Of a stretch of DNA of 64,000 bases, positions 1 through 55,344 are shown piece after piece. The position numbers and the translations under genes were made by a program. This stretch comes from an uncultured Alphaproteobacteria bacterium (lineage in GTDB: Bacteria; Pseudomonadota; Alphaproteobacteria; Rs-D84): assembly GCA_944392535.1 (NCBI GenBank), contig CALXWY010000002.1, positions 62,001-126,000 of the forward strand, given 5' to 3'. The notes beneath the pieces were generated by a model. The model made no database searches, was not told the origin of the DNA, and was given only the letters and a program-made list of their open reading frames with translations. Positions within the stretch are counted from its first letter, which is position 1, and the number at the start of each line of letters is the position of its first letter.

Positions 1-9
1 GATAAAAAA

Positions 10-116
10 CTCCTGGCCTTATTTTTGGTCAGGAGGGTTGTGGAATATCAAATACACAACGCAATTCATGTGATTGTTTCCAACCTCCTGACCACCATAA
101 AAACTGGTGGTTTTTT
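10..116 (+). promoter_or_regulatory. Attenuator-like leader of the Cys-rich gene
   Basis: Four segments can pair in mutually exclusive ways. Segment P (10-18, CTCCTGGCC) pairs with Q (27-35, GGTCAGGAG) over 9 bp with one G-U. Q extended (27-40) pairs instead with R (81-93), including a perfect 10-bp GGTCAGGAGG/CCTCCTGACC block. R overlaps the 5' arm of a terminator hairpin (91-111) that ends in six T. This is the 1:2 / 2:3 / 3:4 layout of transcription attenuation. The trigger is unknown and I recognise no known riboswitch class. The promoter lies left of the window. Confidence 0.5.
91..116 (+). terminator. Leader terminator hairpin
   Basis: ACCACC and GGTGGT form a 6-bp stem around a 9-nt A-rich loop, followed directly by TTTTTT. 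It lies about 28 nt upstream of the following start codon, so it would stop transcription before the gene rather than after one. Confidence 0.6.
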
Positions 117-143
117 CGTTGTAAAAAAAGTGGGAGTTGGACT

Positions 144-9368: not shown

Positions 9369-10136
9369 TTAATGTATTTTTTGTGAATTTTGCATGATTT
9401 TTTGGTATGCCGCCGACCATTCGCCATGGGCACGCATTAAACGTTTTGCAATAAAATCAACTGGCTGGTGTGCACCAATGTATATTTCCGTGCCGCCGGG
9501 CCCATTATCAACAATAAATCCGCGCGTTACAGACATGGAATCCAGATACGCAAACATCGGCAAATGTTCAACGTTTACACGTTCCATATCCAGTTTTTGA
9601 TGATTATCCGATGATATCTGGACACATTCGCGCGTCATTGCCGGCGGTGTGTGAAATACAGGAACTGTTTTGCACTGAATTTTTGATTGAATTTTCTTGC
9701 GATACTGGTTGCTGCCACGCATAACTGCACGGTATCCGTGTTTTTCATAAAAACGACATGATTTTAACAATGATACTAAATCCAACAGCCGCGCGCCCAT
9801 TGCACCAGCAGATTCAGCATATTTTAACAATTGCCCCCCGATGTTGTTTGACATGCATTCTGGTAACACATACAATCCGCGTATTGTCGCAACGCGATTA
9901 ACACAATCGCCGTTTACAAATCCCACAATATCAGAACCATTATATGCCCCAAACGCAAAATTAAATCCACGGCGACGCCACACCGCGGCGTATTCTGCAC
10001 GGGCGTCATCGCGTTCATTTTGGGTCATATTATGATTGTAAACATGCTGCATCGCAGATGCACGTATACGTAAAAAATCGTCCCAGATATTCGGGGCCGC
10101 TTGGTTAAAAATTGGTAAAATATTTATATCAGTCAT
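9369..10136 (-). CDS. GNAT-family N-acetyltransferase
   Basis: A 255-residue protein whose first half looks like a GNAT acyltransferase: 'FAFGAYNGSDIVGFVNGD' (beta strands 2-4), then 'IRGLYVLPECMSNNIGGQLLKYAE', the acetyl-CoA-binding motif A region, and 'CRFYEKHGYRAV', motif B. The last 100 residues do not resemble a second GNAT domain that I can recognise. Substrate unknown. Monocistronic by position. Confidence 0.75.
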   Translation of the reverse strand: MTDINILPIFNQAAPNIWDDFLRIRASAMQHVYNHNMTQNERDDARAEYAAVWRRRGFNFAFGAYNGSDIVGFVNGDCVNRVATIRGLYVLPECMSNNIGGQLLKYAESAGAMGARLLDLVSLLKSCRFYEKHGYRAVMRGSNQYRKKIQSKIQCKTVPVFHTPPAMTRECVQISSDNHQKLDMERVNVEHLPMFAYLDSMSVTRGFIVDNGPGGTEIYIGAHQPVDFIAKRLMRAHGEWSAAYQKIMQNSQKIH

Positions 10137-54738: not shown

Positions 54739-55344
54739 ATGCTTAAATTATTAACAGCATCCGTGTTTTTGTTTTTATTCACAACAAACGGTTTTGCCGC
54801 AGTGGCAACTGTTTCTGGCAATTGTACCAAGCAAAGCTGCTTTATGGGTGAGCCGCTTGATAATAGTTTACAGTCTAATACATATGGGTGCAGGACATCT
54901 GGTGATATCTGTTATTACGGTGGCACCGCCTCAGGCGGAACAGCATCAACATCGTACAGAGCAACATATTGCACATCATGTAACGATGGATATGAATTAA
55001 AAACGTATACAAGCGTATCACAATCTGCCCGTGGATGCACCGTTACATATGACCTGTGTGTTCCGAAATGTCCATCCGAATGCCCAAACTCCACTTCTTA
55101 CAGTGATGCCGGCAACGGCAAACAGGTAATATGTTCCAAGACCGTTGTTCCATATCAATGCTCGTATCGGTGTGCCAACAATTATTATGGTAACGGCGTA
55201 ACATGTTCCCCGTGTCCAGGTTTGGGGAAAAGCGTGGCTGGGAACAATCGCGTCATAACCCGTTGTTATGTTGAATCAGGATACACGGGCAGCAACACCG
55301 CCGGTCAATATGAATACACCGGACGCTGTTACTATAGCGCATAA
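54739..55344 (+). CDS. Secreted Cys-rich protein (family member 5)
   Basis: A 201-residue exported protein. Signal peptide ends 'TTNGFAA'. The mature region holds about 20 Cys, with 'YCTSCNDGYELKTYTSVSQS' and 'CSYRCANNYYGNGVTCSPCPG' groups like the 'GxWGxPxxxCxxC' blocks of the other members, and the C-terminal block 'ITRCYVESGYTGSNTAGQYE' ending 'CYYSA'. Function unknown. Confidence 0.8.
   Translation: MLKLLTASVFLFLFTTNGFAAVATVSGNCTKQSCFMGEPLDNSLQSNTYGCRTSGDICYYGGTASGGTASTSYRATYCTSCNDGYELKTYTSVSQSARGCTVTYDLCVPKCPSECPNSTSYSDAGNGKQVICSKTVVPYQCSYRCANNYYGNGVTCSPCPGLGKSVAGNNRVITRCYVESGYTGSNTAGQYEYTGRCYYSA

Follow-up and report, generated by a model that had tools for sequence, protein, structure and literature searches.

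The described systems closest to the RNA reported here are C4 of phage P1, the prophage RNA IsrK and sRNA-Xcc1. The phage P1 record annotates the prototype order a1, b1, C4, a2, b2, icd and ant, and the GGW at the base of the closing stem is where RNase P cleaves C4 (PMC5320573). For IsrK (RF01394) of the Gifsy-1 prophage, the part of the published account drawn on here describes read-through of a terminator, a long-range helix proven by compensatory mutations, and action in trans on its own mRNA (PMC4825925). In Xanthomonas integrons, sRNA-Xcc1 (RF02221) is located upstream of symE (PMC12444791). The papers we searched, whose coverage is incomplete, held no account of the present RNA in Enterousia and none that places sRNA-Xcc1 with C4.

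We analyzed a stretch of 64,000 nt, here called the window, which comprises bases 62001 to 126000 of contig 2 in a genome of 951 kb. When species genomes were scanned for the exact pattern of the leader, the matches came from metagenome-assembled genomes of gut Alphaproteobacteria, part of them named Candidatus Enterousia; judging by these sequences, the genus carrying the leader family, including the source genome, is almost certainly Candidatus Enterousia. Genomes of the Enterousia lineage (order Rs-D84) are reduced, and its lifestyle is probably partner-dependent (PMC12306168).

Anatomy of the leader

Positions 10 to 116 of the window, for which the first-pass annotation had proposed three mutually exclusive helices in front of a secreted Cys-rich gene, prove to be the 3′ half of a leader of ~225 nt. 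The element starts ~100 nt upstream of the window's first base, at a sigma-70-type promoter, and all of its parts lie on the forward strand; upstream positions are given in the numbering of locus L005, where window position 1 is L005 10001. A −35 box (TTGTTT, L005 9863-9868) is followed after a 17-nt spacer by a −10 box (TATAAT, L005 9886-9891), the latter also backed by its place across copies, as a TATAAT-like box occurs at the preferred distance 5′ of hairpin P1 in 119 of 130 copies versus 55 in shuffles. Sequence and covariation then define hairpin P1 (L005 9899-9917), hairpin P2 (L005 9919-9934) with a1 (GGAA, L005 9926-9929) in its loop, the short strand X or b1 (CACAT, L005 9937-9941), and helix P3 (L005 9943-9946 with 9998-10001, window position 1 being its last base). 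This 5′ half, with its a1b1-like targets, the two long-range helices that they form and an architecture common to C4 and sRNA-Xcc1, had been missed in the first pass.

Within the window, folding and covariation support strand P (10-18), hairpin P5 (37-60), and the intrinsic terminator T2 (90-117), whose stem (90-97/105-112) is followed by a U-run; covariation supports Q (27-36), which begins with GGU and in this conforms to the RNase P site of C4 (PMC5320573), as well as hairpin P6 (62-76) and R (84-93), with ACCA next to it. P pairs with Q (27-35) in 9 bp, the fold of the putative terminated state. In the putative antiterminated state, Q instead pairs with R in 10 perfect bp stacked on the 37-60 hairpin, the core resembling that of C4. 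Bases 90-93 are common to R and the T2 stem. All three pairings that the first pass had listed are thus present in sequence and folding. Two further strands covary with the upstream half: b′ (AUGUG, 68-72) in the P6 loop, which pairs with b1 to form helix PK2, and a′ (UUCC, 78-81), which pairs with a1 in the P2 loop to form helix PK1. Energy folding of window positions 1-130 gave −41.1 kcal/mol (z = −4.8; 0/200 shuffles equally good), and that of the full leader (L005 9890-10150) gave −95 kcal/mol (z = −6.5).

The gene that would be controlled (144-1013) encodes a Cys-rich protein of 289 aa with a signal-peptide-like N-terminus and no Pfam match. We rejected P:Q as the reverse-strand terminator of a convergent gene, since the gene upstream of the leader runs in the same direction and P covaries with both Q and R.

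Covariation, distribution and gene context

A profile search of the fetched loci returned 168 full copies, of which 132 remained after removal of near-duplicates. In an unbiased covariation scan of these 132 copies, the top signals were the long-range helices PK1 and PK2, followed by P1, P5, P6, P3, P2, and then both P:Q and Q:R; a lone pair, c29:c157, was kept in 131 copies. PK1 was paired in 526 of 528 cells with up to four Watson-Crick types, PK1 and PK2 were each kept in at least 85% of cells, and Q:R was paired in ~95% of cells, both of its strands showing changes, P:Q likewise, although such counts overstate the number of independent events because the sequences are related. Loss of Q:R in relatives would have spoken against the first-pass proposal; what we found is that P:Q, Q:R and the terminator are all retained with compensatory changes, which strongly supports their mutual exclusivity. 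Indeed, P, Q and R vary jointly, the CTCCTGACC, CTCCAACC, CTCCTGC and CCCGAC types each retaining both alternatives.

A separate alignment of 54 of the sequences gave 94.2% paired cells and a covariation of 0.488 for the Q:R fold, and 94.3% and 0.501 for the fold of P:Q plus terminator, compared with 0.189 and 0.197 in shuffles (0/500) and at most 0.124 for slid partners. As the two folds share most helices and the structure was read from the same sequences, the specific evidence lies in the per-helix results for P:Q and Q:R. Complementarity to the core is likewise maintained copy by copy, with a1 in 128/132 and b1 in 124/132 copies, and a1/a′ and b1/b′ are free to vary while paired. The P5 loop is strongly conserved, yet different between subtypes, and P3 often encloses a terminator-like hairpin (98/132 by a crude count). 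Targets of the a2/b2 kind at the ribosome-binding site were seen in 12/132 and 4/132 copies, near the control background. We regard it as virtually certain that this is a real, conserved, pseudoknotted leader RNA.

With a covariance model built from the P-to-terminator part, the window yielded one copy, at 105.7 bits, with the next best hit at 19.2 bits when the same-site reverse complement is excluded. The first-pass view that three of five family members in the window have a folding leader was therefore not borne out for this type of RNA; a stretch that folds strongly ahead of 54739 resembles a terminator of the preceding gene. A further Cys-rich, signal-peptide-like ORF (54740-55344) does follow there, and the long perfect hairpin before it is probably that terminator and not a leader of this type. 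The suggestion of one type of control over a secreted family is supported across genome and genus rather than among the window's own members, and genome-wide it even proved an understatement: in its own genome the model gave 26 hits at E up to 1, ~24 of them credible after setting aside one reverse complement of the window copy and one hit probably due to chance.

BLASTN with the 295-nt leader matched 21 of 59 genomes (E up to 0.001), each belonging to the same genus and carrying up to 12 copies, and the pattern scan of species genomes found at least 118 matching stretches. By the covariance model, nearly all searched genomes of same-genus relatives had hits, several with at least 39 copies, which for genomes of ~0.9-1.0 Mb is a remarkable density for a single cis-regulatory RNA. 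In a class-wide draw, 20 of 385 genomes had hits, 4 of the 20 belonging to this genus, and weaker members extend to further families of the order and to other parts of the class. Among 48 such order- and class-level loci, upstream complementarity of at least 7 nt was found in 46 (41% and 26% in controls with other loci) and a T-run 3′ of the last hairpin in 38. Five distant members (L250, L262, L285, L286, L287) share a P5 loop that differs from the Enterousia one and reads UAUGUCCAG...CUAAAG, and in two of these, L286 and L287, the leader seems to sit before glycosyltransferase-like genes. Viral contigs gave zero matches to the exact pattern, which would miss divergent phage copies.

An ORF lies within reach after 122 of the 132 copies, its start codon at a median of 49 nt past R, whereas some copies have no ORF behind them. 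This short spacing leaves little room for an extra promoter, so expression should depend on read-through past T2. A signal-peptide-like N-terminus was assigned to 117 of the 122 by a crude rule that also steered the choice of start codon and comes with no background rate for comparison. In the source genome, the genes behind the leader encode Cys-rich secreted proteins, an outer-membrane beta-barrel (PF13505), a PAP2 protein (PF01569), a long autotransporter-like protein, and three near-identical small helix-turn-helix (HTH) proteins. The last three (L194, L196 and L197, at C1:17820, C3:183281 and C3:174636; near-identical 76-aa genes) mean that the family is not confined to secreted proteins; these copies may belong to a small unit that is duplicated or mobile.

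Other features of the loci deserve mention. The own-genome proteins at L189, L190, L192 and L209 appear nearly identical in their C-terminal and divergent in their N-terminal parts, and recombination or duplication may lie behind this. At L051, L067, L149 and L053, the gap from R to the start codon is ~115 nt, with an apparent second folded element past the terminator. At L058:1494-1694, the Shine-Dalgarno region (GGTTGGAG) matches the locus's own P/Q/R variant, as if able to pair with R; as a general fourth partner, the Shine-Dalgarno region was rejected, as many copies do not fit.

A proposed switch and its alternatives

We consider it probable, from the sequences, that the RNA is a transcription-attenuating leader on a C4-type plan, placed genus-wide before genes for secreted and surface proteins; attenuation would probably take place at T2. 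The RNA would begin at hairpin P1, with P2 displaying a1 in its loop, strand b1 next, and P3 often holding a first terminator-like hairpin. In the core Q-P5-P6-a′-R, a′ before R would pair with a1, and b′ in the P6 loop with b1. With P holding Q, R would be free and the overlapping T2 could form; the result would be a short RNA without protein, and the energies point to this state as the default. Were R to capture Q, the three-way C4-like core would close and occupy the 5′ arm of T2, and the polymerase could enter the gene ~50 nt on. Pairing of a1b1 with a′b′, in cis or on a sister transcript in trans, would bias the choice of fold and couple the two states.

The calculated energies are −23.8 kcal/mol for P:Q with P5 and P6, −26.0 for Q:R with P5 and P6, and −34.6 for P:Q plus T2, with pseudoknots outside these numbers. 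That is, Q:R and P:Q are close before the terminator is made and P:Q plus T2 is far lower, which fits a switch with termination as its default. Growing-chain folding, restricted to nested structures, favored P:Q at all lengths, so antitermination should need an extra factor, be it the pseudoknots, a ligand, a protein or an RNA. That the calculated default fold is terminated at every length would also agree with a fixed, unregulated partial terminator behind an mRNA-stabilizing 5′ structure. Such a device would need neither three mutually covarying strands nor two conserved long-range helices, and we hold it to be very improbable. Many copies before one gene class, the strongly conserved P5 loop and a terminator as expression platform would suit a small-molecule riboswitch, the P5 loop and pseudoknotted core binding a metabolite or ion and thereby choosing Q:R or P:Q; yet that loop varies by subtype, a1/a′ and b1/b′ vary in the manner of antisense pairing, and Rfam reports no known riboswitch family at the site, all of which makes this reading improbable. 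A TPP riboswitch, whose first segment GGGGUGUGAGAACCC resembles, was rejected for want of an Rfam match.

The antisense-like behavior of a1/b1, whose complementarity is maintained in each copy, would accord with a processed RNA as in phage P1: RNase P would cut at the 5′ end of Q, and the resulting C4-like small RNA ending at T2 would bind in trans to a1b1 on its own transcript or on sister transcripts, the b1/b′ pair of each copy serving as private feedback. The C4 topology, the GGU start, ACC(A) after R, and the tRNA-like look of GGU...GACCACCA all point that way, as does the trans action of the sister RNA IsrK in the part of its account drawn on above (PMC4825925), and full cross-pairing of both a and b among copies is rare within genomes (1/796 ordered pairs). 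We nevertheless think this unlikely, since P and the P:Q fold would be superfluous and cross-pairing differs little within and between genomes (1/796 versus 14/3049), numbers too small to claim that cross-talk within genomes is avoided. One might also picture a host lineage that adopted a phage-type a1b1-C4 circuit and expanded it to dozens of private RNA switches with their own a/b codes, each secreted-protein gene of a gut symbiont with a sub-megabase genome being autoregulated by its own leader in cis and in trans, a scenario that we put forward as doubtful.

Copies of an elaborate folded RNA switch before dozens of secreted- and surface-protein genes suggest that this small-genome gut bacterium uses refolding RNA to control its outer face. 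The leader family offers a way into the question of how the secreted repertoire is controlled in an uncultured gut lineage that probably depends on a partner.

Comparison with C4, IsrK, attenuators and sRNA-Xcc1

The leader very probably has the a1b1-C4 architecture: a1b1 is followed by a three-stem core with the a′/b′ order of C4. The phage P1/P7 families c4-a1b1 (RF03163) and C4 (RF01695), of clan CL00128, share its order and topology, namely hairpin, a1-loop hairpin, b1, terminator-like hairpin and three-way core. The c4-a1b1 motif of phage P1 (hairpin, a1-loop hairpin, b1) corresponds to the order P1-P2-X of the leader, and the phage's terminator-like hairpin between a1b1 and C4, a stretch weakly matching IsrK, often has a comparable hairpin in P3. 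Both cores have the b′ loop, the a′ strand, a GG start and ACC after the closing stem; by sequence, the GGU that opens Q and the ACCA after R would be compatible with a C4-type RNase P site. No hit to the Rfam C4 or c4-a1b1 models appeared at the site, even with E values of up to 10 allowed, and our covariance model scored 1.7 bits on phage P1 C4, with no detectable sequence similarity. Unlike C4, the leader lacks a2/b2 at the next gene's ribosome-binding site, has an extra strand P and an intrinsic terminator overlapping the closing stem, and serves not a single antirepressor operon but many host genes. With a2/b2 near background, and P and the R-overlapping terminator in place, the level of control appears to have shifted from that of translation to that of transcription.

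As far as the account of IsrK drawn on here goes, it shares with the leader terminator read-through, in our case a proposed one, and a long-range helix that joins the 5′ part to a later stretch of the same molecule; its published control is translational, and the account drawn on mentions no exchange of P:Q for Q:R at a second terminator. The mutually exclusive P:Q, Q:R and terminator helices are those of classical attenuators and riboswitch expression platforms: there are alternative helices, one of which overlaps an intrinsic terminator, and their conservation is compensatory. In contrast to classical attenuators, no leader peptide was noticed and no ligand is known, and the antiterminator is a pseudoknotted three-way core.

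No Rfam family matched the site at its gathering score, which sets aside a known RNA family; the sole notable weak match was sRNA-Xcc1. Its model scored 31.9 bits at the site and ~35-46 bits on several diverged copies, below the curated cut-off of 53 bits, and aligned to Q-P5-P6-a′-R, that is, to a three-way core whose closing stem and hairpins are the same. An integron attC site, considered because of the sRNA-Xcc1 link, was rejected, as conserved attC boxes do not fit by eye. In 30 RF02221 members from other Pseudomonadota (L297-L326), upstream strands are complementary to the same two places, a1 (at least 6 nt) in 28/30 and, more weakly, b1 in 11/30. A second set lies downstream near the start codon (a2 in 19/30, b2 in 13/30; control, 15% and 4.5%). 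The upstream a1/b1 complementarity is thus common to sRNA-Xcc1 and the leader, whereas downstream a2/b2 strands occur in the RF02221 members only, and P and T2 were not seen by eye in sRNA-Xcc1. Some neighbors of RF02221 members resemble, by eye, phage antirepressors and SymE. RF02221 stands outside Rfam's C4 clan despite its C4-like a1/b1 and frequent a2/b2 strands. Our comparison suggests that sRNA-Xcc1, described as trans-acting and linked to virulence, shares the a1b1-C4 arrangement of phage C4 and may have its target in the adjacent downstream gene, symE for example.
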